Source: Gracilariopsis chorda
Taxonomy: Eukaryota; Rhodophyta; Florideophyceae; Gracilariales; Gracilariaceae
Length of the DNA: 64,000 bases
Direction: 5' to 3'
Assembly: GCA_003194525.1 (NCBI GenBank)
Contig: NBIV01000038.1
Coordinates: 310,001-374,000, forward strand
Under the pieces are notes generated by a model. The model made no database searches. It saw only the letters and a list, made by a program, of their open reading frames with translations, and was not told where the DNA came from. Position 1 is the first letter of the stretch. Every line of letters begins with the position of its first letter. Position numbers and translations under genes: made by a program. Below, one piece after another: positions 7,138-30,399 of the stretch.

Positions 7138-8216
7138 ATGAGCAACAAAGAGGAATACAAAACCAATCGAAGTGCAACAGTACCGCAAACTGTTGTCGCA
7201 AGCTTAGAAGCGCCCAGACTACAGGGCGTAGAAACGAAGCATTTTACAACTTTTCTAAAGAACCGAGAACTATACGAGAAGCAAATCAAGGAGAAAAACG
7301 AGGAGCCCGGCTTCGTGATTCCTTTGACATCGTATAAGGCCTCAGTAGATGACTCGCTTCTCCGCGTTTTTATAACCTTCCAATGGGTTGATGTGGCCAA
7401 CATTGCCGAGATCACGGATGATCAATTGAAGAGATGTGTGCACGACCGTGCACACTTTCGGGCAGACTCTCAAGATCTTTTATAAGTACAGCGCATCACT
7501 CAAAAGGTGCATATGGACACGTCCATCAAAGGGGCCGAGGAAAGGGTACTTGCACTCAGCCATCGTTATATGACGGTTCTTGAAGCAAGTGGGATGTAGG
7601 ACTTGCCGACGAGTAAGTCACACATTGCTATATGTCATGTCTTGAAGTGTATGAGGCCTAGAGCGCTACAGCAACGCATGAAGTATCTCGTAGAATGGCG
7701 AAAAAACGAAGAATCTAGCAAGGACTTCGGAGCTTTCATGTGGGAGCTGATAAAGCAGGCATGCAAATACGATGCCAACCGTGGAACAGCTTTGTGTGAA
7801 TCTGATTCCGATTCCGTCACCAGTTTCGACACCGACGCGCAACCACGCCGGTCCTTTCGCAAAAAGAATTTTGTGAGGAAAAAAAAGGGTCAGAACCGTC
7901 GCAATCGAAGAAGAGACCATAATCACAGAACCGAAACTGAGGGTAGCACTGAGAGAACAGCAAGAGACCTACCCCCTTGTTTGCTACCTGAATGCGATGG
8001 ACGGCATTTTATTTCAGATTGCCCGTTAGCCACGGAAGAACAGAAGAAACAGCTTCGTAAGGAGTACCTTGAGAGAAAGAAAGCGCGGCAAGAGGCCACG
8101 AAAGGCAAAAGCGATCGAATAGGTGCCATTAACCGAATTGGTGCTGAAAAGATTGATTCTCATTCATCGCTGTTTAGCGCTTATTTTGGAAAAGGTGCTG
8201 TAGAAGTCGTGGTCTT
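7138..8216 (+). pseudogene. gag: gag of element B (two stops, cut by element C)
   Basis: A single frame from the ATG at 7138 to the insertion point at 8216, broken by in-frame stops TAA (7483-7485) and TAG (7597-7599). The first 115 residues are mixed charged and would form the matrix/capsid start. The C-terminal part is very basic (RNRRRDHNHR) and is followed by a zinc-knuckle-like CX4CX3HX4C near 7973-8025. Protein-coding sequence resumes in frame after element C at 31301 and enters protease, so gag and pol appear to be one fused frame in this family. Confidence 0.8.
8212..8216. repeat. target-site duplication of element C (GTCTT)
   Basis: GTCTT directly precedes the left LTR of element C and directly follows its right LTR at 31301-31305. 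A perfect 5-bp duplication fixes both ends of the insertion. Confidence 0.92.
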
Positions 8217-9116
8217 TGTAGTGCAATACCCGCAAGCGGGACAACACAATAAGACGTTCGGATCTTCCCCTCTGGAGGGTAACACAGCGAACGGAGCCTC
8301 TCCGGATGAGCACGACGAATTCGGGTTGTAAAGCCGAGGCTCACCCTCACGCCAAGCGGGGAGAGTTGAAACGGTAGGATTAGGACCACCACGAATGGGA
8401 AAACAGCCCTTCCAAGGAGTACGAGTCCACGTAAGTCGGGGAAGACGTCACGGGATACCGGCACGAGAGACACGCGTCAGCGGTGACGAGCAACCACATA
8501 AAGGGATAGAAACCACGAGAGTGGGGTAAGGGAAATACGGGGGATGCCCGATTGGGGCGACGGGGGTGTGGGCCAACGGGACCACGGAAAAAGGTACAGA
8601 AGAACCCTATACAGGGGCGAGAACACGGCGGTGGTGAATTAAGTGACAAGTGCCCAAGGCGGTGATACTCCTAATGACGCAGGGGGGATAGGTCTACCGC
8701 TAGTAACGCGGCTTTACCTCCGAGGAGCGTAGAAGACTCGCGAAAGCGGAAAAGACTTAGAGCCAAGAACCCTGGTTGGGGAAGTTTACTCAGTGTCAGG
8801 GCGAGGTCGCCGAGGCACTATATAGTGTAGTAATCTCCCTACTGTAGCGTAGATAAATAATAAATAATAAATATAAGTTAACTAAATGTCCACACCGTGG
8901 TGCCAACCTCCTCTTGACTATCCGTGTCACACGTGGTCCACTCACGCCTTGGGCGGCACACGGCGCATGCACAGGTGTGCACCTGGTGCACAGTGCAGAT
9001 CCGCTGAGGGCTGAGACACCCGTTAATAGCGGTAGTAATCATAAACACGCGAAAGCGGCAAAAACATCAAGTTCACAGGGCATCGCTGAGTCTTCCTCCT
9101 TGAGGATTGCACTTCA
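8217..9116 (-). repeat. 3' LTR of element C
   Basis: About 900 bp, TGTAGTGCAAT...GCACTTCA, matching 30400-31300 with roughly 2-3% differences by eye. It is dense in short hairpins, for example CCCGC-AA-GCGGG at 8229-8240 and CCCTC-TG-GAGGG at 8268-8279. An AT-rich island lies at 8851-8880. Because the antisense ORF begins 36 bp beyond its inner edge, this LTR is the obvious place for an antisense promoter. Confidence 0.93.
8851..8880. promoter_or_regulatory. AT-rich AATAAATAATAAATA island in LTR C
   Basis: The only AT-rich block of the LTR, repeated in the other LTR at about 31035-31064 and with counterparts in LTRs D (about 11269-11289, 21873-21893) and G (about 60009-60029). Read on the minus strand it could be a TATA-type promoter core for the element RNA. 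On the plus strand it offers either overlapping AATAAA signals or a TATA-like box upstream of the antisense ORF. Which role applies is not decided by the sequence. Confidence 0.4.
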
Positions 9117-9151: not shown

Positions 9152-10645
9152 ATGGCGACGGAAGCACCGGACAAGGTCCTTAAATGTAAGTCCGGCTCGC
9201 CGGTTCTCCATCCCACTCTGGGTAACGAGCACCTAGCTGCGAACAGCGAATCTGCGACCAACTCTTCCGAGGTTGTTCCAACAACACATACGCTTTCGCG
9301 GCCTTCGTCTCTGATTACTCGGCTTCCTTCATCTACGATGAACAACAACAATGGCAACAACAACGGCAACGCCGGCAGCAACACACCGTTACAGTACTTC
9401 TCCGGATTTCATTCCGTGCCTCTACCGCAGAGCGGTCTCTCGACTCCGTCGCAACAAACAGGCGCAAATGCTAGTGCGGCTCCCACGAGAGGGTATTTAA
9501 TGGCAGCGTGGCCGTCGTACGACATGCTGGTCGGGCTGCAGCCTTCGCAACATGCGATGACTCTCCGGCTGGCGCCGTGGTTCCACCCGACTGCGGTGTT
9601 CAATGATGCGCTTCTGGCGATGTATACCGATGGAAACGGGATGCTCCCGGGTGACGTTCCGGCATTCGTGACCACTTCGTGGGATTGGCCCAATCGCGTA
9701 GCGATACCCGTGCACACGGTAATCCGACGGGGTCGGGAATCAACAGCTTCCGCGCACGCGTCGTTGGTCTTACTTGCTCATTAACGGCTTCGCCGGGCTC
9801 CCTTCGAGTGTCCCATCCCCGATGGTATGGGCTCCGGCATCGGATTGTATCGCACCCAAGGTGAAATGGGGTACCTCGACCGCCTCGTGGGTTTAGAACC
9901 ACTCTCGTGGAGAAGCAATCCCGTGGCGCGCCAAGACGAGGTGTGCTGGACACGACCGATCATTCGGGCTGAATTCTGCTATATGCATCACTTGGCGAGG
10001 GCCAACTTCTTGTCGATGATACGCTTTGAGCGGCGAGCACGGTCCCGATTCGGGTATTTGATTCCGTATCAGAACGTAGAAGTCGAACGCGTCCGCGTGG
10101 TCAACCGACGGGGTCGGTACGTTCCGATTCCACCGTGGTGGTCGCATCTCGAAGCGTGCCGAGGTTGCTACATCGAGTTGCCTCCCGTGATCACGTATTA
10201 CGGCTCATACCTCATCGAGGATCCTCAGTCCGGGCTCTGGTCCGTGGTGGTCACCGAATGGGCGGTCCGCATGGCGGCTTTCATCCTCTGGGAGGTTTAT
10301 GACCAGTACAGACTGTGGTTCATCCCGTTGCCAGTCCGTGCTGCCATCCGAGCGCTGGACTTACGAATCCCACTAGGTGGTGAGGCAAACGCTGACGAAG
10401 TAGCGGGGGTCCTCGATTTCATCGACCAGGTTGACTGGGCTTCGGTTCCTCTAGAGCAGAGTGGGCGTACTGCCGGTAGCAGGATACAGGACCTGTCGCC
10501 AGGGCGTCGACCTCCGCTCGCGGGTGACTTCATCTACTTCAACCCCTGGGAGGGGCATGAGATCTCCGCGGAGGAAGCGAACGAGCTCCGGTTTGCACCG
10601 AGATATATCCCCGAGGGCCATCCGACCGGTTTCGTTGACGCCGAT
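9152..10645 (+). pseudogene. antisense ORF (aORF) of element C, 5' part
   Basis: First 498 codons of an ORF on the strand opposite gag-pol, starting 36 bp inside the 3' LTR. One in-frame stop (TAA 9782-9784) breaks it, and element D interrupts it at codon 498; the frame resumes at 22083. The first 90 residues are Asn/Ser/Thr-rich. Then come R-L-A-P-W-F-H-P, a T-T-S-W-D-W motif, an aromatic/Arg-rich core (Y-Q-N-V-E, C-R-G-C-Y-I-E-L-P) and an EVYDQYRLWF helix-like segment. Copies in D (11528-13315) and G (60264-62057) align along their whole length. I recognise no known family: it is not gag, pol, an envelope (no signal peptide or membrane span) or a chromodomain. Function unknown. Confidence 0.75.
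10641..10645. repeat. target-site duplication of element D (CCGAT)
   Basis: CCGAT ends at 10645 before the left LTR of D and recurs at 22078-22082 after its right LTR. Removing D plus one copy restores the reading frame of the aORF of element C exactly. Confidence 0.93.
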
Positions 10646-11472
10646 TGTGGTGCAATGCACCAAAGGGGAAAAACACCGAAAGACGTTCGGGATCTTCCTC
10701 TCACGAGGTGAACCCAGTTGGGTAGAGCCCTCCCAGAGGTGTCACGGCGAAGCCGGTTTGTAAGACCAGGGAAACCTGTCGCGACTCGCGCAGGGAGGTG
10801 AAGGCGAAGAATCGGTATCCGCGTGAGCGGGGTGTGATCCTCAGTAGAGGTAAGTTTCCACGTTAGTGGGGGGGTGTGAGCGGATGCGCACACGAGGGCC
10901 GCGGATAGCGGGAGGTGCTACCCTAAACAGCGGAAGAAGGAAGGGCGAAGAGGAGGAAGAGAGGACAAAGTGAGTCGCGAGAGCGACGAACAGATATGGC
11001 GATGCCGGTGGACAGGACTCCCTATACAGGGCGAAACACCAATGCAATTGGAACAATTATACTACCAGTGATGGGTCCCTTTAGATGTGCAAGGGGGTTA
11101 GATGTCCCGTGGTTCACGGCGTTTCCCTCCAAGGAGGAGTAGAGCACGTGCGCAAGCGGTAACAACTAGAGCCAATTCCCCAGGTTGGGGTCCCTTGTTG
11201 GGGAAGGTTTACTGGTGCGACGGCAGTGCGCCGTCGCACTAAGTACTAGCTTCCCAGAAATGGGTGTGAAAATAATAAATAATATTAACTAAAATACTCC
11301 ACATTTCGTGGCAACATCCACTACTGTGGCCAACCACCAATTGACCCAAAACCGTGTCCCACATGTCCATACCCACCATTGTGGGGCGTAGTTCATATAC
11401 ACACTACACAACCGATAATATCGGGAAAACGATCAAGTACCAGGAATCCCTCCCTGAGGGCGTTGCACTTCA
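10646..11472 (-). repeat. 3' LTR of element D
   Basis: 827 bp, TGTGGTGCAAT...GCACTTCA. It is rich in short hairpins, the longest a 10-bp perfect stem at 11215-11239 (GTGCGACGGC / GCCGTCGCAC, 5-nt loop). The part 11106-11472 is identical to the other LTR of the same insertion, while 10646-11105 differs at about 26 positions. Confidence 0.94.
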
Positions 11473-11484
11473 TATCCCCCTCTA
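11473..11484 (-). other. polypurine tract of element D
   Basis: Minus strand TAGAGGGGGATA directly before the 3' LTR, equivalent to the tracts of C and G. Confidence 0.8.
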
Positions 11485-11527: not shown

Positions 11528-13315
11528 ATGGGTGATAAAAGCGCGTGCTCCGTCTCCGGTTCTCCGGTAAATCCCTCTGCATCAGAGTCACCAAGCGCAC
11601 AAACGACAACAACAGCCACCCTCGACAAGGGAGAAATGAACGACGACAACAACATCAACAACCACAGCCAACCTCCGAGGCTTCTCGGGCGATACACCAC
11701 TGGTTTCCGGTCAGTTCCGCTGCCTCAGGGCGATCGACATCTGGTACAACCGGGAAATATGGCTGCTGCAGCCGACCATCCCTTCGCACTACCACCTTCG
11801 GTGGTGTCCTCCGGAGCCACTGCGATGTCCAACTGGCCAACCTACAACACCCTGGTGGGGCTCAATCCGATGAATCGGAATCATGCGTCGCGCCTGCGCC
11901 TTGCCCCGTGGTTCCACCCGGTCGCTGTCCTCAATTAGGGATTGGTCACCGCTTATGCGGATGGCTCAGACACCCTTCCGGGGGATCTGCCCAGAGCAGT
12001 CACCACATCGTGGGATTGGCTTCACCGGATTGCGATTCTGCGTCACCACCTCCGAAGAAATTAGGGCGAGACCGTCGCTGCGGCGCAGACCGCGTTGACG
12101 CGCATGGCGTACCAACGGCAGAGCCGGACTCCATTCGATGTACCGGTCCCACCGGAGTTTGGCTTCGACGTTAGCTACTTCCGCACTCGCGGGGAGATTG
12201 GGTACAGCGAGATCCTGTTCCGCCTCGAGACCCTCGCTTGGAGGAATTTCCCCGCAGCGCGGCAAGAAGCCCTCTGTTGGGAGCGACCGATTATTGGAGC
12301 GGAGTTCAGGTACCTTCCCCAGCAATACCGGTCCAACTTTCTCCAAAACTTCATCCGCTACGAGCGGCGTTGGCGATCCCGATTCGGGTATATCATCCCG
12401 TATCAGAACGTGGAGATAGAGCGGATTGCGCCGCCTCACCGACTAGGTCGTTATGCAGCACTCCCCGAGTGGTGGCGCTTCCATAAAGCCTGCCGGGGGT
12501 GCTACATAGAACTCCCGCCGGTATTTACGTACCTCAGTTCGCTGCTCATGCAGGATCCCCGGTTGGGGTTGTGGTCCGTGGTAGTTACGGAGTGGGCGGC
12601 CCGCACTGCGGCTTATATCCTCAACGAGGCGTACGACCAGTACCGTCTCTGGTTCCTTCAACCGCGTGTGCGGGCAGCGATCCGAAACCTGGATCTTCGC
12701 ATCCCCCTTGGGGGCCAGGCCAACAATGAAGAGGTCCTCCAATTACTTGGGTACATCGACAGCGTTAGCTGAAGTGAGGTCCCGATGGAGCAAAGCGGTC
12801 GTCTGGATGGCGGCAGCGGTAACACCGGTGGTCCGGGAATGGGTTGACACACCGCCCTTGCGGGGGATTCTATCTACTTCGACCCCTGGGAGTTCCGGGA
12901 AATTTCCTTCGAGGAGGCGCGCGAGCTTCGCGATACGCCCCGGCATGTGCCGGAAGACCACCCAGTGGGGTACGTCAATTCTGACGACTACTATCGCGCA
13001 TACGGTGGGGATGACCCAATGGTCGATAACGAACCGGAAGAACCCGGGGAGATGGACGTAGAGGAAACTGGCGCTAGCGCGGAAGCTTTCCCAGAGGGGG
13101 TATCTCCGGCCGAGCCGGCTGGTGACCCTTCGGCGGCAAGTGCCGGACCTTCTATCCCCAGCGGGGTGACGGCGAATGAAAACGAGATCATCGCACGTTT
13201 TCTCCGGAGTGCCGGTCTTAACGCTGCCGAGGTATTGGGGGATGTCACCACCATGGCGGACGCGTTGGCCTACCGCCTTGCTGGTGGTTATGCCCCGGGC
13301 AACGGCGAAGAGTGA
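11528..13315 (+). pseudogene. antisense ORF (aORF) of element D
   Basis: A 596-codon frame on the strand opposite gag-pol, starting 56 bp inside the 3' LTR and ending about 190 bp from the convergent chromodomain ORF. There is no frameshift. It is broken by nonsense codons including TAG at 11936-11938 (GAG in copy G), TAG near 12054, TGA at 12770-12772 (TGG in G) and TGA near 12844. Layout: Ser/Thr/Asn-rich N-terminus; R-L-R-L-A-P-W-F-H-P; W-D-W; a PYQNVEIERI and CRGCYIELPP core; an LNEAYDQYRLWF segment; an acidic stretch (DDPMVDNEPEEPGEMD); and an Ala-rich C-terminus. No signal peptide or membrane span is visible. No family recognised. Confidence 0.78.
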
Positions 13316-13506: not shown

Positions 13507-14256
13507 TTACCCAACTTGGGCATTAACCAGCGTGGCTGGGGCTGCAGTTCCCGTTTGACGGTGGTATCGCAGGACCTGCGACCGTGGGAGGTGTTCAATT
13601 GGCTCCCACGTATCCCCATTGGGGCCGTACCCGTACCAGCGGACGCGGTATTGTAGAATACCATCCTGGTCCCAGGTGTGTCCGACAAGTCGGTCTACTA
13701 CGAACTGTCGTTCGTAGACCTGCCGGCCGTGCCGGGTGGTGGTTGTACTTCCCTGCGGGGGCTGCCCGCTGTGCGGTATAATGTCCCTTAGCAGGGTGTT
13801 CGGCGATAACTCCGGCGTTGCCGTGCGCTGTGATAGCGGCCGCTGCTCATGCGGGAAGATATCCCTCAAGAAGGTGTGTGGTGCCACGGTTTTCACCGGC
13901 AAGTCATTCCCCATTGGGGCAGGTTCATTTCCGCTTTCGCGGTATTGCGGGCGAACCGCCGGTCGGCGGGGGACTTGGGCTCCGCCTTCGCGGTTGAGCT
14001 CACGAACCGCGAGTTTGCGCGAAGATGACCGCTCCTGCGGAATAGGCATTTCCACAATCCCCTGGGGGGTCCCGTGCGACACGGTGATTGGGTGGCAAAC
14101 CGCATCCCTGCCAGGCGCACGAGCGCTCTGCACCATACGTTCCGGCGATGCCGTGGTGTCCCCGGCTACTGACGGGTTGCCTGGGGCTAACTCCGGTACA
14201 CTGGTATTTTGGTCAAAATTCCCCTTTGGGGGGTGCCGGGCAGGTTCCGGTGACAC
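13507..14256 (-). CDS. chromodomain ORF of element D (C-terminal end of pol)
   Basis: 249 open codons. The first 170 residues are a Pro/Arg/Thr-rich linker with no recognisable fold. The last 80 contain a chromodomain: Y-E-R-Q-F-V-V-D-R-L start, an I-L-Q-Y-R-V-R-W-Y-G strand and G-D-T-W-E-P-I-E-H-L. In chromoviruses this domain follows integrase and directs insertion to particular chromatin. It lies in a different frame from the integrase part. Comparison with C and G suggests that the shifts between the two parts are separate indels rather than programmed frameshifting. The antisense ORF converges on its 3' end. Confidence 0.75.
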   Translation of the reverse strand: MSPEPARHPPKGNFDQNTSVPELAPGNPSVAGDTTASPERMVQSARAPGRDAVCHPITVSHGTPQGIVEMPIPQERSSSRKLAVRELNREGGAQVPRRPAVRPQYRESGNEPAPMGNDLPVKTVAPHTFLRDIFPHEQRPLSQRTATPELSPNTLLRDIIPHSGQPPQGSTTTTRHGRQVYERQFVVDRLVGHTWDQDGILQYRVRWYGYGPNGDTWEPIEHLPRSQVLRYHRQTGTAAPATLVNAQVG

Positions 14257-17200
14257 CCTTTTCAGGGGCTTGGCCGCTAAGTGCGGTGCACCGTCTCCAC
14301 GTGGAGGAGCAGCGTCCGGTATGACCGGTTTCGAGCGTGCGCTTTTTCCAAGTTCCTTGGTTCTTCCCCGCAGCGTTGCGGGAGGTGGCGCAAATTATTC
14401 CCCAGAACCGGGGCTTCAATTCCGTCGACGACGAGAGGTGTTTCCGGTGCTTGCAGGCCAGGGCCTGAAGCGTCGGCTGCGGCTTGGCTGCCTTTTTCCC
14501 CACTATGGCTGTGGGGATTTCCCAGCGGCGCTGGTGTATCTGGCCGCCTCGTCTCCAAAAGGCGCGGGTCTGATCGACCTGATTGAACCGCTTCCGCGGG
14601 GACTTCCGCCAACGGCGGCTTCGAGGCATCGCCCTGCTCAGGGGATTGAGGGCGATCGTCGCCGTACTCCCGTAACGGGGATCCCTCCCTGACAGGGGTG
14701 TGCGGTAGCTGCGTTTCAACCTCCCGTTTTGACGGCGATATCGTTCCTCGAAAACGAGTGTTCTCCTCCCCCTTCTTAGACGGAGCGGCGGGATAAGGGA
14801 TAGCATTCCCCGCCTGGCGGGTATAAATGCGCGCCAGTGAAGCAGACGTGGTAGGGGCGGGCGTGAGAGGCCCGAATTACCCGGCTGAGCCGTTGAGTCC
14901 GACAGAGTCGGTAGGTCTGAGAGTCCCCGGCTGGGGTGTGGTAGTACCGTGGGCCTAGTACTCCCAGAAGATTCCGGTGTTGCAGAGTCCGTAGAAACGG
15001 GATGTTCTGAATCCAGGATTACCTCTGAGGAGGGAGGGGGGACGAGTACGACACGATCGCGGGAGATCCGCTCGTGTGCTCCACCTATCTCTACAACGAC
15101 AGTGTCGGCATTAACAGAGATGACCTTGAAGGGTGCGTCCGCCACAGGCGAGAGTTTGTGACGCTTCTCCCGTTCCGGGTTGAAGTACTCCTTCTTGATG
15201 AAGACGTAGTTATTTCCCCGAATGGGGGGGTCTTTCCGCGCAAGCCAGCGTCAAAATCCCACTTGTAAGCAGCTTGGGCCCGTGCCATAGACTTCCGCGC
15301 AGCGGGGACCAGCTTGGAAAGCCATTGCTTCCATTTCTGCCCGTAGATACCCACAGATGGGAAATTGTCCAAGGTAGCTTGGGGTTCCAGCGCCACAGGC
15401 AAGGGTGTTCTAGATAGAACCAACTCGAATGGCGAAACTCCGGTAGTCCGGTGTACCTGCGTATTGTACGCGTAGGTTACCGCATCAGCGTACATGTCCC
15501 AGTTCTTTGGGTGGTCTGCGATGTAGGAACGTAACGCCGCGAGTAACGTCCGGTTAAACGGTTCAACTTGCCCATTACACTGGGGGTGGTAGGTAGTCGT
15601 GAACAAGTTCTTGACATCCAGGATGCAACAAACATCCTGGAAGAACTTGCTCACGAACTGTTTCCCGTTATCGGAGAACACCTCCACAGGGGGACCATAG
15701 ACGAAAATCCAGTGCGTCACCAGAGCCTGGGCCACCGTGAGAGCGGTTATCCTCCGAAGAGAGACAGTCCGTACCAGCTTAGAAAAGCGGTCGGTAATGA
15801 CAAGTAGAAACTTGTTTCCACGTTTCGTGGTGAGTTATGGTCCGAGAATATCGATCGCGATAAACTCGAGCGGCGCCCTTGCGGGGAATTGTTTCATCTT
15901 CTTTGCATTTTTGCGGAGCTTGACGCGATTCTTCGCGCATTCGCTACAAAACCGCACGGTTGCGTAGCAATCCACCGCCATGGCGGGCCAATAGAAATCC
16001 CTTCGCAGGGTTAGGTAGAGTTTCCTCCCACCTGGGTGACCTCCAATGGGGGCGTAGTGTGATAGATGTAACACCCGCGACTGCAGGGAATGAGGTACCA
16101 AAATCTGTGGGCGGGCTTCGACCTTCCTTACGAGGTAGCCTTTGTCTTATACCCCGAAAGGGAGATCTTCACCACCGTTGATACGGGCACGAATCCTCAT
16201 ACAGAATGGGTCACCGAATTGTTCTCGGATCATTTTTTCCGGTGATACCGGTACAAAGTTTCCCGGTAACGGGTTCTCAGATTCATCTTGCGATGCGAGT
16301 AGTTCGTCAAAGTCAGCATCCTCGTCCCAGTTTTCTGGCCCAGCCTCGACGGCACATTCCGGATCATCCGGGTCCATGGCCATGAAGCATGGGACTTCAT
16401 CATCCTCCGTTGGGAGTGCTTCCTCACTTGTGGGTAACCGCGACAAAGCGTCGGCCTGGGTGTTCTGCGCGCCCTTTTTATAAATGACTTGAAAGTCATA
16501 TTCCGCAAGGCGGAGTCTCCAGCGCATGAGGCGTCCCGACGGGTCGGAGATATTCATTAACCACCTCAATGAGGAATGATCCGTGTACACGGTGAAGTGA
16601 ACTCCCATAAGGTAGGGGCGCAGAGTGGTCATCGCCCATACGACGGCGAGGCACTCTTTCTCCGATACGGAGTAGTTCCGCTCATGAACATTGAGCGAGC
16701 GCGACCAATAACCAATTGGATGTCGTTCCCCCTCGGGGGTGGTTTGATAAAGAGCATACCCGACTTGGTAGTCGCTCAAGTCCGTATCTACGGAGTATGG
16801 CAACACAAGTTTTGGGAGATGTAGGATTGGTGCTGATGTGACAGCCTCCTTCAAGGAGTTGAAAGCTTCCGATTGCTCGGGCGTAAATGTTCCCAGTTTT
16901 GGGGGGTCCCCCTTTCGCAACAACGCGTTCAGGGGCGCCGCGGTATCCGAAAAGTTCGGGATAAACCGTCGATAGACGATGACCAGCCCCAAAAAGGAGC
17001 GCAGTTCCGTTTGAGTACGGGGCTCTTTTGCCTGAACGAGGGATTTGACTCGAGCTTTCTCGATCGCTAACCGTCCAGGACGGGTAATGTGACCCAGATA
17101 CTTCACAGTATCTGTGAGAAACTCGCATTTCTTCAACTTGAGGGTAATTCCCGCATCGCGCAGTATGGTCAGCACGTCTCAGACGTGAGTGAGATGGTCG

Positions 17201-18973: not shown

Positions 18974-21144
18974 TTAGTTTTCCGCCTTCGGCGGTGGGTT
19001 GGTTTCCTCGACAACGAGTGCTTCATCCCGTTGACGGTGGTTCCTATCCGCCTAAGCAGGGGTTGCAACGGATGGTTGCGTGATCTCCCGAATCGGGGTG
19101 TATGAAGCTTGCCACACACGCGGGATCTCAGGTAGGGCATGGGAAAAGTCCGTTTTAGCACCGAGGTAGGAAGCCGTCGGGACGGCACGTTTCTCCTCTG
19201 GAGTCAGGGCCTCATAATTTGCCACTACCTTGGCCATATCCTTCAGTGAACAAATACACTGAGGTGAGGTATGGCCATGGGCATAGCACAGGTGGCAAAT
19301 GAGAGCCAATACCGCAACACGCGGATTATTATTCCGAGTATCGGAGAAGCGAACCGCAGGGCGGGTGTGAGTCCATCCAGGCCGTTGATAACGGGAATGA
19401 CCGTTTGAAAACGGGAGTCGTATGGGTTGGACCCGACCGTTACCACCGTATAGAACGGGATCTTCTGTTCCCGTATCACGGGTCATCTCCGTCGTTGACG
19501 GTAAATCGTGGGTATCGACACACCATCCCTCTGCACTAAATGCACGGTATCAAATCCCTGTCCAGGGTTCCCATCCACGGTGAGCGGGAGAGAGGAAGCT
19601 TCGCTTTCCAGCAACAACGCCTTGGCGGACTTAGACCGATGGTTCGGAGTTCTTGCACGGAGTGCATCCCCTTCCGCTCGAGCGTGTTGAACCAGCTCGA
19701 GATAGGTGATCCTCCGCTTGTCCTCCCGATAACGGGTAACTAAACTCCGGATTGCCGGGTCAAGACCATCGATGAACATGGTACTGCGCTCCCCAGCGGG
19801 GTACACGTTACCACATCTGTGGAAAGCCTTGTTAAGGTGCACCGAGTAATCGGTCTCGGTCTCTCTAGCACGCTGGCGTGTATCTCGCAAAGCGAGGACA
19901 TCCTGCTGAATAGCGGTGTTTGTGGCGTAGGAGCGCAGTAGATACTGCACAGCCTCCGGCCAGCAAGTAACTCCTCCCTCGGAGGCACGAGAAGATCCTC
20001 TGACAGAGTTGTATTGGTCCTCCGCCACTCCCCGTAAGAAATACGGTAAAGCCAAATAGGCTTGTCTCTCATTCATACCGAGGATATCGGCCTCCGCTAC
20101 AAAGCGGGATAGGAAATCCAGTACTAGGACTGGGTCCTCTCCAGTAAAATACTGGTTGCGGAGCGAGAGCTGCATTCGCTTAATGCATTCTCGCACCTTT
20201 CCCGTACCACGGGGCGTGCGTCCAAGTGACGAGTCTTCGAGCCGGTAGTACCGGTATGATAAAAGCTTCCGGTAATCCGGGTTTGTCGGGTTCAATTCCC
20301 GGAGACAGGGGTGTCTTCTCCCCTTCTGGCGGGTTCGGACCACACCTTCAGTGGCCGATGACCGCTTCGAGTGGGAGGAGTAGCCCTGCTTCTCGTCCTC
20401 CGAGCCGGAGTCCGAGGAGCTCGAGCACAGCGAATGGTTTCGGGATGAGTCCGACGATGTCGAAGAATCGGAGTCCGAATATTTTCGGTGGTGTTTCCGT
20501 CGATGACGGCGTTTCTTCTTCCCAGCAAGCTGGTCGTTGTGCGATGCCTCATTTACCGGATCATCCGGGGATGGTTTGTCCATGAGGACGAACTGCTCCA
20601 GCGTCTCCAGGCGGGCACCAATCCGATCAAATCGGGCTTCAACTCCTTCGATGAAGGTGGCGGGTTGTCCCAAACTCTCCAACACGGAGTTGACGTCATA
20701 CCGTAAAATACGGAGTTCCTCGGCGACCTCCTTTACGGGGGTTGCCAAGACCACCTCTTGGAGGGATTTTAGTTCCCCTACAAGGGTGTCATGGGCGTTC
20801 CACAGAGCGCGGACCTGGGATTCCATGGGAGTCCCCTGGGGGTTGTTATCGTCCGTTCTACGGGAGTTTGAAGCCGCGACAGCGGGAGCGGGCCGGGGTG
20901 CCTGGGGCACTGCACCAACAGCCGGAGTGGATGCTGCATTCCCCTGAGGGAGTGATAACGAGGGCAAAAGGAGGTTCTGGGGTTCCCGGTCGGGGGTATC
21001 ATTCCGTGATGAGGTGGCGCCAGTACGGCTGGAACTTGTCCGTATAGGGATACGGGGTACGAACCGAACTTCGGAAGTGTCCGCGTTGTCGCGGGAGCGA
21101 CTACGCGTAACCACTGGCTCCGCATCGGAGGGATTTCTCGACAT
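18974..21144 (-). pseudogene. gag: gag of element D
   Basis: The first 553 codons (21144-19483) are open. A frame change follows at 19485, the rest continues in a second frame to 19052, and after an in-frame TAG it runs on to the true end at 18976-18974 (GAA-AAC-TAA). Parts in order: a disordered Ser/Pro/Ala N-terminus, a short coiled-coil region, a Lys/Arg and Asp/Ser-rich stretch (HRRKHHRKYSDSDSS), and the capsid core (L-S-L-R-N-Q-Y-F-T-G-E-D-P ... F-L-R-G-V-A-E-D-Q-Y). It ends with a zinc knuckle CX2CX4HX4C (CHLCYAHGHTSPQC). The start ATG lies 105 bp inside the 5' LTR. Confidence 0.85.
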
Positions 21145-21249: not shown

Positions 21250-22077
21250 TGTGGTGCAACGCCCCAAAGGAGAGAAACACCGAAAGACGTTCGGGATCTT
21301 TCCTCCGTGGAGGTGAACCCAGTTGGGTAGAGCCCCCCCAGAGGTGTCACGGCGAAGCCGGTTTGTAAGACGAGGGACACCTGTCGCGACTCGCGCAGGG
21401 AGGTGAAGGCGAAGAATCGGTATCCGCGTGAGCGGGGTGTGATCCTCAGTAGAGGTATGTTTCCACGTGAGTGGGGGTGTGTGAGCGGATGCGCACACGA
21501 GGGCCGCGGATAGCGGGAGGTGCTACCCTAAAAACGGGAAGAAGTAAGGGCGAAGAGGAGGAAGAGAGGACGAAGTGAGTCGCGAGGGCGACGAACAGAT
21601 ACGGCGATGCCGGTGAACAGGACTCTCTATACAGGGCGAAACACCAATGCAATTGGAACAATTATACTCCCAGTGATGGGTCCCTTTAGATGTGCAAGGG
21701 GGTTAGATGCCCCGTGGTTCACGGCGTTTCCCTCCAAGGAGGAGTAGAGCACGTGCGCAAGCGGTAACAACTAGAGCCAATTCCCCAGGTTGGGGTCCCT
21801 TGTTGGGGAAGGTTTACTGGTGCGACGGCAGTGCGCCGTCGCACTAAGTACTAGCTTCCCAGAAATGGGTGTGAAAATAATAAATAATATTAACTAAAAT
21901 ACTCCACATTTCGTGGCAACATCCACTACTGTGGCCAACCACCAATTGACCCAAAACCGTGTCCCACATGTCCATACCCACCATTGTGGGGCGTAGTTCA
22001 TATACACACTACACAACCGATAATATCGGGAAAACGATCAAGTACCAGGAATCCCTCCCTGAGGGCGTTGCACTTCA
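21250..22077 (-). repeat. 5' LTR of element D
   Basis: 828 bp. It shares the second half (21711-22077) without a difference with the 3' LTR, but its first half is clearly diverged, including a different perfect hairpin (CCTCC-GT-GGAGG at 21302-21313) where the other LTR has CCTC-TCAC-GAGG. Confidence 0.94.
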
Positions 22078-22082
22078 CCGAT

Positions 22083-22406
22083 GAGTACTACAACGTCTAC
22101 GACGGTGAGGATCCGATGTTCGACAACGAGCCCGACGAAGGTGCCGGTCACGCCGAGACAGAGGGAGAACCATATGGTATGGATGCTCCTGGAGTCGCCC
22201 CTGCCAGTCAGCCGTCCAATCCGTCGGTCGGTCTTCCCACTGGTGGGTCCTCTACGCCAGGTGAGGCGAACGTGGCCCCTGTGGGTCAGGCTGCCGTGAT
22301 CTCTCAGTTCCTCCGCCAAGTAGGGCTGGGAGGTAACGAGGCCAGTGGCGATTTCACCGCGATGCGGGATGCTCTGATAGCCCGACTCCAGAGAAATAAC
22401 CACTAA
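22083..22406 (+). pseudogene. antisense ORF (aORF) of element C, 3' part
   Basis: The last 107 codons and stop of the ORF begun at 9152, resuming in frame right after the duplicated CCGAT. This part is acidic (D-G-E-D-P-M-F-D-N-E-P-D-E), then Pro/Ser/Gly-rich, and ends in a short helix-like segment (VISQFLRQVGLGG) matching the C-termini of the D and G copies. Whole length across both parts is 605 codons, with one internal stop. Confidence 0.75.
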
Positions 22407-22621: not shown

Positions 22622-24115
22622 TTATCCCACTTGGGCGTTTATCACCGATGCCGGGATTCCCGTTCGCGTTCTGCGACGATATGACACCACATTCGAACGT
22701 GGGAGGTGCTCTATCGGCTTATCCGAATCATATTCGGGCCCGAAACCGTACCAGCGTACGCGGTACTGGATGTAACCATCTGGATGGTAAGAATGTTCCA
22801 CAATGTGGTCAACAACAAACTCCTGTTTGTAGACTTCCCGGCCTCGCCGTGTATGCATTATCGCGTCCTGCACGGCAGGCTCTACCACCACTGGTGGGTG
22901 TTGGACAGTCTTCCCCGGAAAAGGCATGGCTTGGTACTGCCTTTCCATGCCCATAGAAAGGTCATTAACTGGTTTCCGAGTAGGTTCATCCGCTTCGCGG
23001 GCCTGGAGGTCCTCGGCACGGCCGTTTGCGTCGACCACTTGATGGTTCGTATCAGGACCCTTGCTGTGGGTTAAAGTATCCCGCTTCGCGGTTTCTTCAT
23101 TCCTTGAGGGGGCGTCTATTGACGATACCCTTTGAGGAGCTTCTAACGCATCTGAAAGATGAGCATCTGGGTCGCAAACCACAGGTTTGTGTGTAGATAT
23201 CCGTCTTGACGGGGGTACGTCAGACGACGAATTCGGTTGCACCACGGTGCGTCGTACAGTACGCGTCGACTCGCCTAGGGCGGTAATTGGTCCCTTTGCC
23301 TTCCGTACGGTGTCGGGGTCACGTGCCGTTTGCAACGGATGGTTGAGGGTTGTCCGCGCCGTGATGCGTTCCACCTCCTCACGTGAGGGCGGTTGCAACG
23401 GCGCTGCCGGTGTGTTGTCTCGCTTTGGCGACAAAGTATTTCCGTCTTTGACGTGCTTTCCTTTTGGAGTGACCGGTGCGACTTTGGTGACACTGTCGGG
23501 ATCTACCGAGACACTCGGAGTGAGTTCGCGACTGCGCGATGGTCCTAAACCAGAATCCAGCTTGCTGGTCGTTTTCCTTCCGTCCTGTACGGTGTGCTTG
23601 CCCGGCCTGGCCGGTGTGTTCTGCCATGCAGTAGGAGCTAACACGTCCGGTGTAGTCGGTTCAGAGGATCCCGCAAGGGCCTGCTCTGCATTATCCAGCG
23701 TAGCTGTTGTTGACGAACCGTGACCCATGGAATGCGGATCAACGCTCGACGGCACAGCCGGTTCAGTATTGCGAACGCGATTAGTTTCCTGCGACGATTT
23801 CACTTTGGCGAGAGACTTCCCACTGCGTGGTGCATTTTGACGACTAGAATCCCGGTGGGGAGTGCGATCTGGCGCAGATGCGGTAGAACGTCCTCGAGAG
23901 GGTTCAGCGGTAGCTGTAGCGCGCAAATGCGAACATGGCACGTCAGTAGACGGAACTCTCGGTCCACTATTATCCTCTTCGATGTGTCCGGAGGTCCGTG
24001 CACCACGGTTGTCATGACGCGACGAAGCGGTTTCAGTGTTAGGGTCCTCCTTCCCCCTCCTTAGATGGAGCGGCATGGAAAGTGGTAGAAGCGCCCAAAC
24101 TGCGGGGATAGACAC
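22622..24115 (-). CDS. chromodomain ORF of element C (C-terminal end of pol)
   Basis: 497 open codons overlapping the end of the pol frame by 77 bp in another frame. About 400 residues are a Ser/Thr/Pro/Arg-rich, low-complexity linker, much longer than the one in D and G. The last 80 residues form a chromodomain (Y-K-Q-E-F-V-V-D-H-I, I-Q-Y-R-V-R-W-Y-G). The usual T-W-E-P is S-D-K-P here, so an aromatic residue common in the domain is missing. D and G suggest that this ORF was once continuous with pol and that one indel near 24060 separated them. Confidence 0.7.
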   Translation of the reverse strand: MSIPAVWALLPLSMPLHLRRGKEDPNTETASSRHDNRGARTSGHIEEDNSGPRVPSTDVPCSHLRATATAEPSRGRSTASAPDRTPHRDSSRQNAPRSGKSLAKVKSSQETNRVRNTEPAVPSSVDPHSMGHGSSTTATLDNAEQALAGSSEPTTPDVLAPTAWQNTPARPGKHTVQDGRKTTSKLDSGLGPSRSRELTPSVSVDPDSVTKVAPVTPKGKHVKDGNTLSPKRDNTPAAPLQPPSREEVERITARTTLNHPLQTARDPDTVRKAKGPITALGESTRTVRRTVVQPNSSSDVPPSRRISTHKPVVCDPDAHLSDALEAPQRVSSIDAPSRNEETAKRDTLTHSKGPDTNHQVVDANGRAEDLQAREADEPTRKPVNDLSMGMERQYQAMPFPGKTVQHPPVVVEPAVQDAIMHTRRGREVYKQEFVVDHIVEHSYHPDGYIQYRVRWYGFGPEYDSDKPIEHLPRSNVVSYRRRTRTGIPASVINAQVG

Positions 24116-27100
24116 CGCGCGGTGGCGTTAGAGAAGAAAGGCCATTCGGGCCTGCGTCCGATAAGGACGGTATATCTGAGAGTCCCCTTGAAGGGTGTGG
24201 CAACACAGAAGGCCTGTTAACCACAGATGTGGGTTGTTCCACTGGGGTGTGTTGGTTCTCATCTTGGTAAGCAACCTCTACGGAGGGTGGCGGTGCCATA
24301 ACAACGCGATCGCGGGAAATCTGCTCCTGAGCGTCGTTCATTTCCACCACTAAGGTGTCGTTATCCACTGATATGACCTTGTAGGGACCGTCCGCGACGG
24401 ATGAGAGCTCATGCCGTTTCTCCTTATCGGGGTTCCAGTGCTCCTTACGCATGAAGAGGTAGTCACCCTCCTTAATTGGCGGTGCTGTACCTCGTACACG
24501 AGAGTCAAAATCACGCTTGTACGCGGCCTGTGCTCGTGCCATGGAGCTCCGGGCGACCGGGATTAACTTCGTAAGCCACGCTTTCCGTCGTTGGCGATAA
24601 TCCTTCACGGAAGGGAAGTCTGCCAGTGTAGGCTGGGGTTCCAACGCTACGGCGGGCGGATGACGCGAAAGTATCAATTCAAATGGAGTCAAACCCGTTG
24701 TACGGTGTACCTGTGTGTTATACGCAAGCGTCAAGGCGTCAGTGTACAGGTCCCATGTTTTGGGGTGATCAGCGACGTAAGAACGGAGAGAGGCCAACAG
24801 TGTTCGGTTAAACCGCTCGACTTGCCCATTACACTGGGGGTGGTAGGTCGTTGTGAACAGATTCTTGATATCGAGAATCCGACACACGTCCTCAAAGAAT
24901 CGCGATGCGAATTGCTTTCCGTTATCGGATAGAATGTTAACCGGTGGTCCGTAGACAAATACCCAATGGGTAACGAAGGCTTGCGCCACCGCGAAAGCGG
25001 ATATCTTCCGTAAAGGTACGGTGCGAACCAACTTGGAGAAACGATCCGTGGTAACGAGTAAAAACTTATGTCCACGCTTTGTGGTGAGCAGCGACCCCAA
25101 GAGGTCAATTGCGACAAACTCGAGAGGGGCCCGTGCTGGAAATAACTTCAACTTCGTTGAGTGCTTCCGGAGTTTGACCCGGTTCTTGGCACACTCCGTG
25201 CATGACCGCACAGTCGCGTAGCAGTCTACAGCCATGGCTGGCCAATAGTAACTCCGTCGCAACGTGAGGTAAAGTTTCCGTCCACCGGCGTGTCCACCAA
25301 GTTTCGCATAGTGCGACAAGTGCAACACTCTAGATTGTAGAGTATGCAATACCACTACCTGTGGGGTTGTTTGAACCGTCCTGACGAGGTATCCAACATC
25401 ATTCACCTCGAAAGGGAGTTGCGCACCGCCATTAAGTCGGGCGCGAATCTGAGTACAGAAGGGATCACCTTGTTGTTCTCTGACCATCTCCTCCGGGTGC
25501 ATTGGCACGAAATTACCCGGTGGGGGTTTCTGAGCATCGTCCGAGACGAGTAGTGCGTCCAGTTCATCATCCGATTCCGGTTCTTCATCCGAGTTATCAG
25601 GTTCACGGTCCGGGTTCTCCGGTTCTCGACCGTCGACGACGAAGCAAGGAATGTCCTCGTCCCCAGCGGGTAGAGTTTCACCATCCGTGGGTAAACGCGA
25701 CAGCGGGTCCGCCTGAGCGTTCTTTGTGCCCTTCTTGTAGATCACCTCGAAGTCGAATTCCGCAAGGCGGAGCCTCCAACGCATTAAGCGGCCTGACTGT
25801 TCAGAGACTGTCATGAGCCATCGTAATGACGAGTGATCCGTGTAATCGGTGAAGTGCACACCCATAAGATAGGGGCTGAGAGTGGAGAGTGCCCACACAA
25901 CTGCAAGACACTCTTTCTCCGAAACGGAGTAATTCCGCTCGTGAACATTCAGTGAGCGTGACCAGTACCCAATAGGGGTTCGTTCTCCCTCGGGGGTTGT
26001 CCGAAAGAGAGCGCAACCTACTTGTGAGTCACTAGCATCCGTGTCTACGGTAAACGGTAGTCCGGGTTTCGGTAACGATAAGATCGGTGCTGATGTTACA
26101 GCCTCCTTGAGGGAGTTAAATGCCTCCGTCTCGACGGATGTAAAGGGTTCCAACTTCAGTGGTTGGCCTTTCCGCAAGAGCGCGTTCAAGGGTGCTGAGA
26201 TATCCGCACAATTCGGGATAAACCGTCGATAGACGTTGACTAATCCTAGAAAGGAGCGTAGTTCCGTTTGAGTGGCGGGTTCCTTCGCTTGAAGGAGCGA
26301 CTTAACTCGAGCTTCCTCGATCATCACACGCCCAGGGCGGATTATGTGGCTCAGATACTTCACTGTATCTGTAAAGAACTCACATTTACTCAACTTGAGA
26401 GTAACTCCAGCCTCACGTAGCGTGGTCATGATATCTCTCACGTGTGTGAGGTGGTCATCCAGATTATCTGAGAATACTATGATATCGTCCAGGTAGACGA
26501 GGCTTGTACGCCATTTGAAGCGAGCCAGTAGTATGTCGATAGCACGCTGGAAAGTAGCGGGAGCATTGGTCAAACCAAAAAGCATCCGTTTGAAACGGTA
26601 GAGTCCGGAGTGACAGACAAAAGCAGTCTTGTCGCGGTCCTGTTCCCTGACGGGCACCAGCCAGTATCCCCAATTGGCGTCTAGAGCCGTGAAAACGGTA
26701 GCATTTCCGAGTGAATCGATGTACTCATCCATTCGTGGGATCGGGTACACATCCTTGATGGTTACGGCGTTCAGTCGACGGTAGTCGATGCAAAAGCGCC
26801 AAGATCCATCCGGTTTCGGAGCCAGTACCACTGGGGATGCCCACGGCGACTGAGCCGGTTCTATTACTACAGCTCGGAGCATCTTTTCCACTTGGAATTC
26901 TTCCTCTTCTCGAGCGTTAGGGCCTGCCCTGTAGGGGTGCTGAGCGATCGGCCTGGTATCAGGTAGCAATTCAATCCGGTGCTCTGTTGTAGTAATCTCC
27001 CCTAGGGAGCCATCCCACATCGTGGTGAAATTACGTAGCATCTCACGGAGACGTTCACGGTGCGATTCCGGCACATGACCGAGGTCAACTTCCTCGAGTT

Positions 27101-28162
27101 CTTTCACAGGATCAATCCGGTCGTAACTCGTTGGAACGGGCTTAGCATCCGAGAATTTCGGCATTTGGACGGCAGTGTCCTCCCCCTCCTTAGAGTGAAC
27201 GAGACCGAGGACATCGGTGGCGGTCATTCTCGTGGGAACCATCACGGTGGGGTGGGGCATTACCGAACCAATGACTTTGGTTTTCACCAGTGACTGGGGC
27301 GTAGAGCTTAGATTGGCGACCAGCACGTTGAACGGTTTATCGGGCTCAATTTGAGCTACTCCATTCGCCACGGAGAGTTGATACCTATCATATAAGGATG
27401 AAAGGGGTTGAATTACTCGTAAACCGTGTTGAGAGGAAGTGACTCGTACCCAAACTTGGGATTCCGGTGGAAGTTGGACAGACGCGGCAACGCGCAGCTT
27501 TGTAGAGTCCCGGAAAGCCAGTGGGGGTTCCTGCGGAGCAGGTAATGGAACGTGCTTCTTCGAGGCACGTCGTAGAGGACGACGTACGATCGGAACGGAG
27601 GAGCTGTCTTCCATTTCCACACGTCTTAGACGGGGCCTGATGGCATCGACGAATCTGTCACAGAAGTCGCATCTCAAGATCAAAGGGGCGGCAAGTTTCC
27701 GACAAACAATAAAGTTGAGTTTCACAAGAAAGGAGCTAAGGCGCACTACCAGGTCGATTTTCCCAACCGTTGATAACGGGTTATCATTGGCATCCGCGAC
27801 ATCCGGTATCACGCCATGGCGGATCTGAGACTGCAACGACGGTGGCAGGAGCGACTCAAAGATGAAGTTTGGGCCTGCACCTGTGTCCAAAAAAGTAAGA
27901 ACTCGCACCATAAACTGGGTGGAAAGGCCAAGGTCAGCATATACCTTGTAGTTTCTCTTGGCCATTACCAAAACTCTGTCCGGGAACCGGTTGCTTCGAA
28001 CACGTTTTCACGGTCGACGCAGAACACTAAAGTGTTCAGAGTTCACGTCTGAGACGGCCTGTTTCCTAGTAAGGATTTTGACCGGGGAGCGAGGCAGTGA
28101 CGCCTCGGGCGCCTTCAACCTCAACTCTGAGGGCGCCTCTCCCGTAGGGGAGACTCCCGAAC
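24039..28162 (-). CDS. pol: Pol polyprotein of element C
   Basis: From 27971 the frame is open for 1310 codons. Protease active site D29-T-G-A; RT with W-A-S-P-V-V-L, F-T-A-L-D-A-N-W-G-Y-W and Y-L-D-D at about residues 492-496; RNase H with D-T-D-A-S-D and T-D-H-S-S. Integrase has an HHCC region (HLSHY ... CTEC) and catalytic residues in V-A-I-D-L-L-G, S-D-N-G-K-Q-F and N-G-Q-V-E-R-F-N at about 955, 1014 and 1052. It ends in the G-P-Y-K-V-I integrase C-terminal fold. Upstream the same frame extends to the gag stop at 28165-28163 but holds one TGA (28010-28008) where element D has TGG. It would be reached by a -1 shift from gag at GAA-AAC-TGA. All catalytic residues are present. Confidence 0.9.
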
Positions 28163-30284
28163 TCAGTTTTCCTGAGCCCGTTCCGCCTGAGGCGGGGTCT
28201 CAGAGTACTGAACCACTAGCAGTGGAGCGCTAGCGGGGGTGTCTTGTCGAACAAGACGGGGGTTAGTGACCTGCTCAGCAGGGGAAAGCAACGCGTGTGG
28301 CGGGTTCGTATCCGGGATATTCCGGGGGAAGTCCGTCTTCGCTCGTAAGTACGATGCAATCGGAACGGTCTGCTTCTCCGCTGGAGTAAGGGCTTCATAG
28401 TTACTGATCACTCGGGTTACTTCTCTCAAAGTGAGGATGCAGTCCGGTGAAATGTGACCGTGTTCGTAACATATGTGGCATATGACTCCAGAGCGTGGGG
28501 GCGGCTGACCGGAACGAGCATCCGTGTGTCTCACCGCTGGGCGGGTATCCTTCCATCCGGGACAGCTCTGCCGGAGGGGAATATTTGCATAGGGAATGCG
28601 AGGTCCGTGAACACGGGGTACGTCAACATACAGCAGGGAGTTCTCCTGAGCTGTGTCGTAGGACGCATCCTTCGTGGACGGCAGTTCCCTGGTCGGAATA
28701 GACCGAGCACCGGCCTGAGCGAGGTACACGTTATCGTAGTCCCTTGAAGGGCGTCCACTCCCTGCTAGCGATAAAAATGGTGAACTGACTTCCATCATCA
28801 ACGCCTTGGCGGAACGAGACTTCGATGCAGGGATACGAGCTCGAAGTGCATCACCTTCCGCTCGCGCGTGTTGAATCAACTCCAGGTAGGTGGTGTTACG
28901 ACGATCCTCCCGATATCGGGCCACCAGCGTACGGATTGCCGGATCCAATCCATCGATGTACATGGTGCAGCGCTCTCCAGAGGAGTAAACATTGCCACAC
29001 CTGTGGAAAGCCTTATTAAGGCGTACCGAGAATTCGGTTTCCGTCTCTCCAGATTTCTGTCGGGTATCGCGTAAAGCGAGAATAGCCGCTTGAATAGCGT
29101 TGTTCGTCGCGTAGGATCGCAAGAGGTACTGAACCGCTTCTGGCCAGCACGTTACACCTCCTTCGGAGGCTCGGGAAGAACTTCTTACAGAGTTGTATTG
29201 ATCCTCGGCGAGGCCACGTAGAAAATACGATAAGGCAATGAACGCCTGTCCTTCGTTCATACCAAGTATGTCCGCTTCGGAAACGAACCTTCCGAGGAAG
29301 TCCAACACCAATATGGGATCCTCTCCAGAAAAGGACTGGTTACGAAGGGAAAGCTGCATACGCTTGATGCAGTCCTTCACCTTACCCGTACCACGGGGTG
29401 CACGATCCAATGAGGAGTCCTCAAGCCGATAATATCGGTACGATACCAACCTCTTGTAGAGGGGATTAGTACATTTGAGTTCCCTCAATCATAAGTGTTT
29501 CCTCCCCTTCCTCCGGGGGCCAATCACACCTTGGGTGGAAGAAGACCGTTTAGGATGGGACGGGCGTCGGCGACGATCATCGTCCGACGAAGAATCCGAC
29601 GACACCGAACCATCAGAATGGTGAGAATCCTGTGAAGACAGGGAGGAATCCGACGAGTCGGGATCGTGCTTGGGCTGCTTCTTACGAGTGCGGCGGGTAG
29701 AATCTTTCTTCTCGCGCTTCGCTTTTTGCGAGACAGCAGCGGCCTCACCCGGGACGTCGTCATCCATCAAGATAGTTTGCTCCAACGTCCTCAGACGGGC
29801 ACTGACACGATCAAATCGGGTTTCCACATTCTCAACATAGTTGGCAGGACCACCAAAACATTCCAGCACAGTGTTGACATCCGCCCTTAAAAGGCGAATG
29901 TCCTCAGCCAAATCCTTCATAAAAGAGGTATCAAACCTTGCACGCAGGACTTCAAACTCCTCCACGAGGGTATTGTGTGCTTCACGCACCTCATCAAGCT
30001 GCGCTTGGACACTAGGGGGGGCGTCGGTATCGGGGTCTCCCCTCCGGGGTGCAGCTAAATCGGCAGAAGCCGGGTCGACACCAGAGTTGGGAGCGTCCTT
30101 CAACGCCTTAGGCGGGGGTTTCTGGGCTCTCGACGAGTCTTGGCGCTTCGACTTGCCTTTCAAAGTGGCACGTCGAGGGTGGCCAGCGGGGACCTTCGAG
30201 ATCTCTGCCTGTTGCCTGTTTTACGTCACTGACGGAACGACTCCGCGTGACAACGGGTTCGGCGGAGGATGGTCGCCGAGACAT
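28163..30284 (-). pseudogene. gag: gag of element C
   Basis: The start ATG (30284) and the first residues (MSRRPSSAEPVVTRSRS) match element D. A frameshift lies between about 30270 and 30165. The remaining frame 30163-28163 is interrupted once by TGA at 29491-29489 where D has a Cys codon (TGT). Contents: Pro/Asp-rich N-terminus; a coiled-coil region; a basic/Ser-Asp-rich segment; a capsid core (L-S-L-R-N-Q-S-F-S-G-E-D-P); and a zinc knuckle CHICYEHGHISPDC of type CX2CX4HX4C. It ends GAA-AAC-TGA, the same context as in D. Confidence 0.85.
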
Positions 30285-30396: not shown

Positions 30397-30399
30397 CTT

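Follow-up and report, generated by a model that had tools for sequence, protein, structure and literature searches.

A conserved antisense reading frame between the chromodomain ORF and the 3′ LTR of red-algal Ty3/gypsy elements: a candidate trans-acting accessory gene

Extra genes that lie between pol and the 3′ long terminal repeat (LTR) and are read antisense to gag-pol have been described in plant and fungal elements, and PMC7264820 reports their function in LTR retrotransposons as unknown. An antisense open reading frame (ORF) with a TRP28 domain occurs in 97% of Retand clusters, according to excerpts of PMC11963269. Here we describe an arrangement of this kind in a red alga, Gracilariopsis chorda, in a stretch of 64,000 nucleotides (contig NBIV01000038.1, positions 310,001 to 374,000 of the forward strand), hereafter the window; positions below are counted from its first letter. 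The window contains several Ty3/gypsy elements in minus orientation, of which C, D and G carry a chromodomain and, on the opposite strand, a long antisense ORF (aORF). The preliminary description of the window, which was made from its letters alone, had pointed to antisense ORFs in some plant Ty3/gypsy elements; such plant frames are called aORF-3R (PMC7264820, PMC11963269). Among the titles and abstract openings listed in searches of the open-access literature, none concerned an antisense gene in red-algal elements; the arrangement is known, and what appears new is the family of proteins together with the fold predicted for it. Overall, we consider that the aORF probably encodes a trans-acting accessory protein of red-algal Ty3/gypsy elements, made from an antisense mRNA that would start in the 3′ LTR.

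The antisense frame and the selection acting on it

A single plus-strand frame fills the gap between the chromodomain ORF and the 3′ LTR in each of C, D and G (Table 1), and the coordinates bear out both this position and the lengths first given for it (605, 595 and 597 codons, respectively). As had also been described, the frame is interrupted by isolated nonsense codons at differing sites, none of which is common to the three copies, and by no frameshift; the sole other break is the insertion of D in C. Five of the stop positions first given (9782, 11936, 12770, 60795 and 61629) stand, and the two given as approximate shift from about 12054 to 12062 and from about 12844 to 12845. When D and C were compared, the mean BLOSUM score was 2.71 in the aORF frame, and none of the other five frames, with 6 to 19 stops each, exceeded 1.46; the aORF frame is far beyond chance.

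The substitution pattern was evaluated between D and C over 472 aligned codons. Identity at the three codon positions was 0.63, 0.71 and 0.37, with ca. 53% amino-acid identity in this codon comparison and saturated third positions. The nonsynonymous divergence (dN) was 0.43 and the synonymous divergence (dS) 2.8, the latter saturated, giving a ratio of ca. 0.16 with a bootstrap upper bound of 0.26. In 30 D-type copies, including that of the window, the pooled ratio of nonsynonymous to synonymous differences per site (pN/pS) was 0.292 (jackknife standard error [SE], 0.015), a value biased downwards because the loci were chosen as the top protein matches: the D protein query had 1902 first-look candidates, of which 74 were scored. 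Their pS was 0.059, compared with an LTR p-distance of 0.065, and pN/pS in the core of the frame (codons 86-255) was 0.14 to 0.17. The tail of the chromodomain ORF in the same loci, which served as a control, gave a ratio of 0.62, and the other frames gave 1.1 to 1.8, except for the mirror antisense frame, which gave 0.39 but is full of stops. These substitution patterns show that protein-coding selection acts on the aORF frame.

The preliminary description had regarded the frame as a gene that was formerly intact and has decayed independently from copy to copy, a view upheld by the commonness of stop-free copies (see below) and by the pooled ratio of the D-type copies. It had named two outcomes that would speak against this view. 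The first combined a dN/dS near 1 across many copies with the lack of an antisense transcript; such a dN/dS was not what the D-type copies gave, as the ratio above indicates. The second, a shadow of a known gag/pol domain, was checked and rejected: the aORF frame alone is conserved, and the stops lie in the other frames. Beneath the aORF, a 158-codon ORF is present on the gag-pol strand in both D (11969-12442, minus strand) and G (60711-61184, minus strand), and this ORF is probably a shadow of the aORF. Synonymous change in the 30 D-type copies dips at D codons 331-420 (12518-12787), to 0.013 to 0.030 as against 0.059 overall, and C-type copies are only mildly low in roughly the same part. 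This dip could reflect an overlapping signal, gene conversion or chance.

Copies, relatives and deleted derivatives in the genome

Scored rows in the genome searches are lower bounds on copy number. Among the D-type rows, 60 of 74 were stop-free, with 0.50 stops per 1000 codons. The C query gave 88 rows, from which 22 D-type rows (54-56% identity) and 2 short fragments were excluded; 30 of the 64 remaining C-type rows were stop-free, as were 21 of the 42 full-length ones, with 1.53 stops per 1000 codons. For comparison, 9 of 35 scored rows of C-type pol were stop-free, with 1.24 stops per 1000 codons. There are thus at least 138 scored aORF copies in these two families and more in others, and the queries P0002, P0006 and P0012 match further families with mostly open frames of ca. 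580-690 codons. Amino-acid identity of the aORF is 56% between D and C and 41% between D and the far relative L062, and the frame persists at identities of 38-56%. Integrase-region identity falls in step with it, from 74% between D and C to 52% between the L062 family and C.

A protein search with the three window copies gave five matches, including proteins annotated as hypothetical in Gracilariopsis chorda (BWQ96_03215, 617 aa) and in Gracilaria domingensis, and a second search added a homologue in Agarophyton chilense. In the genome of the window, residues 1-491 of BWQ96_03215 were matched at 100% identity and residues 88-565 of BWQ96_10156 at 99%. One further candidate, P0011, was dropped as noise (E 2.6), and none of 18 pattern matches in viral contigs was confirmed as an aORF relative. 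Proteins of Gracilariaceae that were so far only 'hypothetical' are now placed in mobile elements.

The aORF is linked to its neighbours. A chromodomain ORF adjoined its 3′ end in 58 of 60 fetched loci, on the opposite strand in all 58; the two loci without a detected one were C itself, which is cut by D, and L038. The edge of a D- or C-type LTR lay at most 60 nt from the aORF start in 60 of 60 loci. Behind L062 (ca. 41% identical to D), chromodomain-like and integrase frames were found on the opposite strand (L065); they were judged by eye, and the integrase was then confirmed by BLAST. Starting from C-type pol, 23 of the 35 scored copies were followed at a distance of 1.2-2.6 kb by a scored aORF, which lay on the opposite strand in every case. 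The other 12 comprised C itself, four copies with a common deletion, one with the N-terminal part and six ambiguous cases. Most copies of the family carry an aORF.

A more distant relative was recognised by way of element E, for which a chromodomain was looked for and not found. The aORF profile weakly matched a frame of E (46059-46841). Since individual control matches to other frames had z-scores as high as 4.3 and 5.2, the profile match alone left the relationship unsettled. The genome contains 147 matches to this frame (146 candidates scored), some of them stop-free, with frames of 738 codons and more. One E-type piece of 801 bases, L073, was aligned with 20 members of the aORF family and gave z-scores against shuffles that averaged 9.2, with a range from 1.8 to 19.0; the hhalign probability was 96.5%, with an E value of 8.8e-10 (single comparison). 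Judged from these alignments, the E-type frame is a distant relative of the aORF, and it was the L073 alignment that settled the matter. Given this homology, the aORF would predate the split of the two pol lineages or have passed between them.

A pol copy without an aORF (L072, on contig C5; G000:C5) has the region behind its chromodomain ORF fused to about codon 53 of the aORF. The identical junction was found at no fewer than 8 places on 6 contigs when 40 of 162 candidates were scored. This derivative belongs to the C family and retains the chromodomain ORF, most of the aORF being gone; three copies on contig C3 lie ca. 8.9 kb apart. The common junction at 8 places indicates that the deleted element multiplied, by transposition or, at least for the C3 copies, perhaps by duplication. 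Such copies show that the aORF is not needed in cis; of the candidate roles named in the preliminary description (control of the sense RNA, nuclear export or silencing suppression), they argue against any that would be required in cis. Either the element can do without the aORF or it receives the product in trans, and we regard trans supply as the better reading because other copies show selection.

The predicted protein and its possible role

The preliminary description of the protein, with a disordered N-terminus, an aromatic/Arg-rich core, an acidic C-terminus and no recognisable domain, holds. The isoelectric point (pI) of the core is 9.1, and the C-terminal 120 residues have a pI of 4.1 and a charge of -20. 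The D and C aORFs had no Pfam match at E <= 1, and 16 family members searched against Pfam-A at the same threshold gave only two weak matches, to DUF6220 (0.094) and DUF6127 (0.11). Among PDB sequences there was a single match, at E 9.7. A first whole-length model was poor (predicted local distance difference test [pLDDT], 54.7), and a model of the core built with 20 sequences reached a pLDDT of 84.3 and a predicted template modelling score (pTM) of 0.84; structural comparison of the predicted models gave no match to a known fold. No membrane span was found in L002, and its best 19-residue hydropathy of 0.95 rules out an envelope protein. Helices at the C-terminus that looked SAP-like by eye had no Pfam support. 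The acidic tail contains a motif, DPMVDN(E/D)P (D codons ca. 496-503), which recurs in several families, with DPMFDNEP as the C version, and is absent in the types P0006 and L064; it is a possible linear interaction motif.

Lysine makes up 0.5-0.8% of five family representatives, as against 2.9-4.5% of gag, pol and the chromodomain ORF of C and D. There are 4 lysines in D where 14.0 are expected (P 0.0016) and 3 in C where 13.8 are expected (P 0.0005); the other three families gave P values of 0.06-0.13 singly. Residues 96-475 of the L002 core contain no lysine at all, and among 64 open frames of at least 150 codons in the window the four lowest in lysine are aORF pieces. No such depletion is seen in the E-type relative L073 (3.4%) or in P0012 (3.1%).

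On these grounds we propose the following mechanism. The aORF would be a genuine gene that a large set of red-algal Ty3/gypsy elements share, most of them chromodomain-bearing. Its mRNA would start within U3 of the 3′ LTR. The 35 nt (C) or 55 nt (D) between the inner LTR edge and the aORF ATG, part of which is filled by the polypurine tract, scarcely fit an internal promoter, so that any mRNA would have to begin within the LTR or further out; from this position, an antisense promoter in the LTR is very likely, provided that the gene is expressed. The product, of ca. 66 kDa, would consist of a disordered N-terminus, a folded basic core rich in Arg and aromatic residues, and an acidic disordered tail, and it is likely to act in trans as an accessory factor. 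It may bind element RNA or chromatin and thereby keep the element expressed; that it binds nucleic acid or chromatin and so promotes expression is a tentative first guess, made because of the basic core, the acidic tail and the chromodomain integrase as a companion.

Several observations weigh against this account. Outside the D-type copies the ratios are higher: pN/pS was 0.57 (SE 0.045) in 29 C-type copies, the window's own excluded, and 0.66 (SE 0.09) in the 16 stop-free ones among them, and the D-G comparison gave 0.55 (0.38-0.86). The choice of the D-type loci by protein score lowers their ratio; the D-C comparison is free of this bias. Post-insertion decay accounts for part of this, and to judge from these figures the C family seems less constrained recently. 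Besides, copies without the aORF exist at 8 places, so the gene is not strictly needed, at least in cis. Finally, neither Pfam-A, nor PDB sequences, nor the fold comparison gave a match to a DNA/RNA-binding domain or fold.

Four other explanations were considered. The first is that the protein suppresses silencing or antagonises a host factor, acting as an adaptor through which a host silencing factor is put out of action or degraded, its few lysines sparing it from ubiquitylation. The lysine depletion in five representatives, significant in D and C, would fit, as would the prevalence of lysine deserts in ubiquitin-ligase receptors and other ubiquitin-system proteins described in excerpts of PMC10169902 and PMC10665810. 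However, the depletion is not significant singly in three families and is absent in L073 and P0012, and no ubiquitin-system domain was matched among the 16 members in Pfam-A. Nor was there any sign that lysine gains are purged within families, where they are no rarer than matched changes (E>K in 6/42 against D>N in 5/32 columns for D; 6/26 against 5/20 for C). We consider this explanation unlikely.

Yeast Ty1 has a self-encoded restriction factor, and the aORF protein might similarly restrain its element, in which case copies that lost the aORF would be cheaters. The common aORF-less derivative at 8 places is what copy-number control would produce, but it is rare compared with the 64 C-type rows with a full or partial aORF, and a benefit to the element accounts more readily for the purifying selection seen across families; this possibility appears quite improbable. 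We give the same low weight to a structural component of the particle, made in small amounts and packaged with gag as a capsid or intasome cofactor. The aORF travels with pol and the chromodomain, its core is basic, and trans supply would account for the deleted derivatives; nevertheless, the sense RNA is where a structural part should be encoded, the fold comparison matched nothing gag-like and no capsid, and the lack of a membrane span speaks against an envelope protein. That the antisense RNA itself is functional and the frame a by-product is scarcely credible, despite the regulatory roles of antisense retroelement RNA discussed in excerpts of PMC7264820, since D-type nonsynonymous sites change ca. 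3.4-fold less than synonymous sites, whose rate is close to that of the LTRs, the frame persists at identities of 38-56%, and the translated core folds confidently.

The trans-acting accessory protein could also be seen in a wider frame. In red-algal Ty3/gypsy elements, a trans-acting regulator encoded in antisense and having a new fold may have arisen independently of those in plants, fungi and retroviruses; some of its family members would have shed lysines and so escaped ubiquitin-dependent removal by the host, and the deleted elements would be parasites borrowing the protein from intact relatives. As a whole, this picture is speculative and rather doubtful. The system is unusually testable, with a constrained protein, a confident predicted fold, many copies, a relative behind a second pol lineage and natural deletion derivatives.

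Layout of the window and comparison with known systems

Reverse transcriptase (RT), RNase H, integrase and Chromo were matched in C and D by Pfam, the Chromo match of C falling below the cut-off, and the chromodomain follows the integrase, as in chromoviruses; the chromodomain of G was assigned by its identity to that of D. D sits within C, its insertion point falling inside the aORF of C, and G extends past the right end of the window. The short tract next to the 3′ LTR of D is what we take to be the polypurine tract. Other retroelement remains were noted. An LTR-like sequence at 44005-44248 is ca. 69% identical to part of the D LTR in reverse orientation, and a further broken pol at 51934-54189 (minus strand) is 42-59% identical to C pol in pieces. 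Another Ty3/gypsy pol lies at 31888-34856 (plus strand), with pieces 21-29% identical to C pol, and the aORF profiles found no aORF relative adjoining it.

Table 1 Features of the elements in the window
Feature	Position	Strand	Remarks
aORF of D	11528..13315	+	595 codons; four nonsense codons (11936 TAG, 12062 TAG, 12770 TGA, 12845 TGA)
aORF of C, first 498 codons	9152..10645	+	one nonsense codon (9782 TAA); cut by D insertion
aORF of C, last 107 codons and stop	22083..22406	+	beyond the far side of D
aORF of G	60264..62057	+	597 codons; two nonsense codons (60795 TAA, 61629 TGA)
3′ LTR of D	10646..11472	-	by repeat comparison; element sense is the minus strand
5′ LTR of D	21251..22077	-	96.9% identical to the 3′ LTR of D
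Target-site duplication of D (CCGAT), in the aORF of C	10641..10645 and 22078-22082	.	second copy at 22078-22082
3′ LTR of C	8214..9116	-	outer end approximate
5′ LTR of C	30397..31300	-	98.2% identical to the 3′ LTR of C; ends approximate
3′ LTR of G	59383..60214	-	approximate
Putative polypurine tract of D	11473..11483	-	adjoins the 3′ LTR; sense AGAGGGGGATA
Chromodomain ORF of D	13507..14256	-	Pfam Chromo 3.3e-10, 40.2 bits (cut-off 25.1)
Chromodomain ORF of C	22622..24115	-	Pfam Chromo 20.4 bits, under the 25.1 cut-off
Chromodomain ORF of G	62245..62994	-	78% identical to that of D
pol ORF of C	24039..27971	-	RT, RNase H, integrase
RNase H part of the broken pol of D	16147..17175	-	Pfam
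gag ORF of D	19483..21144	-	by position and 74% identity to gag of C over 266 aa; no Pfam match
gag ORF of C	28163..29488	-	by position; no Pfam match
Broken pol of E	47471..51113	-	pieces 34-41% identical to C pol (tblastn)
Decayed and highly divergent aORF relative in E (part)	46059..46841	+	antisense to E pol; five nonsense codons

HBZ of human T-cell leukaemia virus type 1 (HTLV-1) is a bZIP protein encoded by an antisense RNA that starts in the 3′ LTR, and the aORF resembles it in this respect, by position only. Unlike HBZ, the 16 family members gave no bZIP match in Pfam-A, and we claim no relation. Boty is a fungal chromodomain element. Outside plants, an antisense gene between pol and the 3′ LTR, brtn, likewise occurs in the Boty-like elements of Botrytis (Zhao et al. 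2011, as cited in excerpts of PMC7264820 and PMC8365987); among the matches of three profile searches, most of them nameless, no fungal source name occurred, the BRTN sequence itself not having been compared. The long lysine-free stretch of the L002 core recalls lysine-desert proteins of the ubiquitin system (excerpts of PMC10169902 and PMC10665810), but no ubiquitin-system domain was matched in the aORF family, and only part of its members are depleted. The elements described here differ from those with plant aORF-3R in belonging to red algae and in carrying a chromodomain, Retand being of a non-chromovirus lineage according to excerpts of PMC11963269, and their aORFs have no Transposase_28 or SMC match; Transposase_28 (PF04195), the domain of the Retand TRP28 aORF, was not matched by any of the 16 members in Pfam-A at E <= 1. 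As with aORF-3R of Grande (gene23), RIRE2, Retand and PvRetro13 (PMC7264820, PMC11963269), the red-algal aORF is a conserved antisense gene that lies between pol and the 3′ LTR and is present in most copies.
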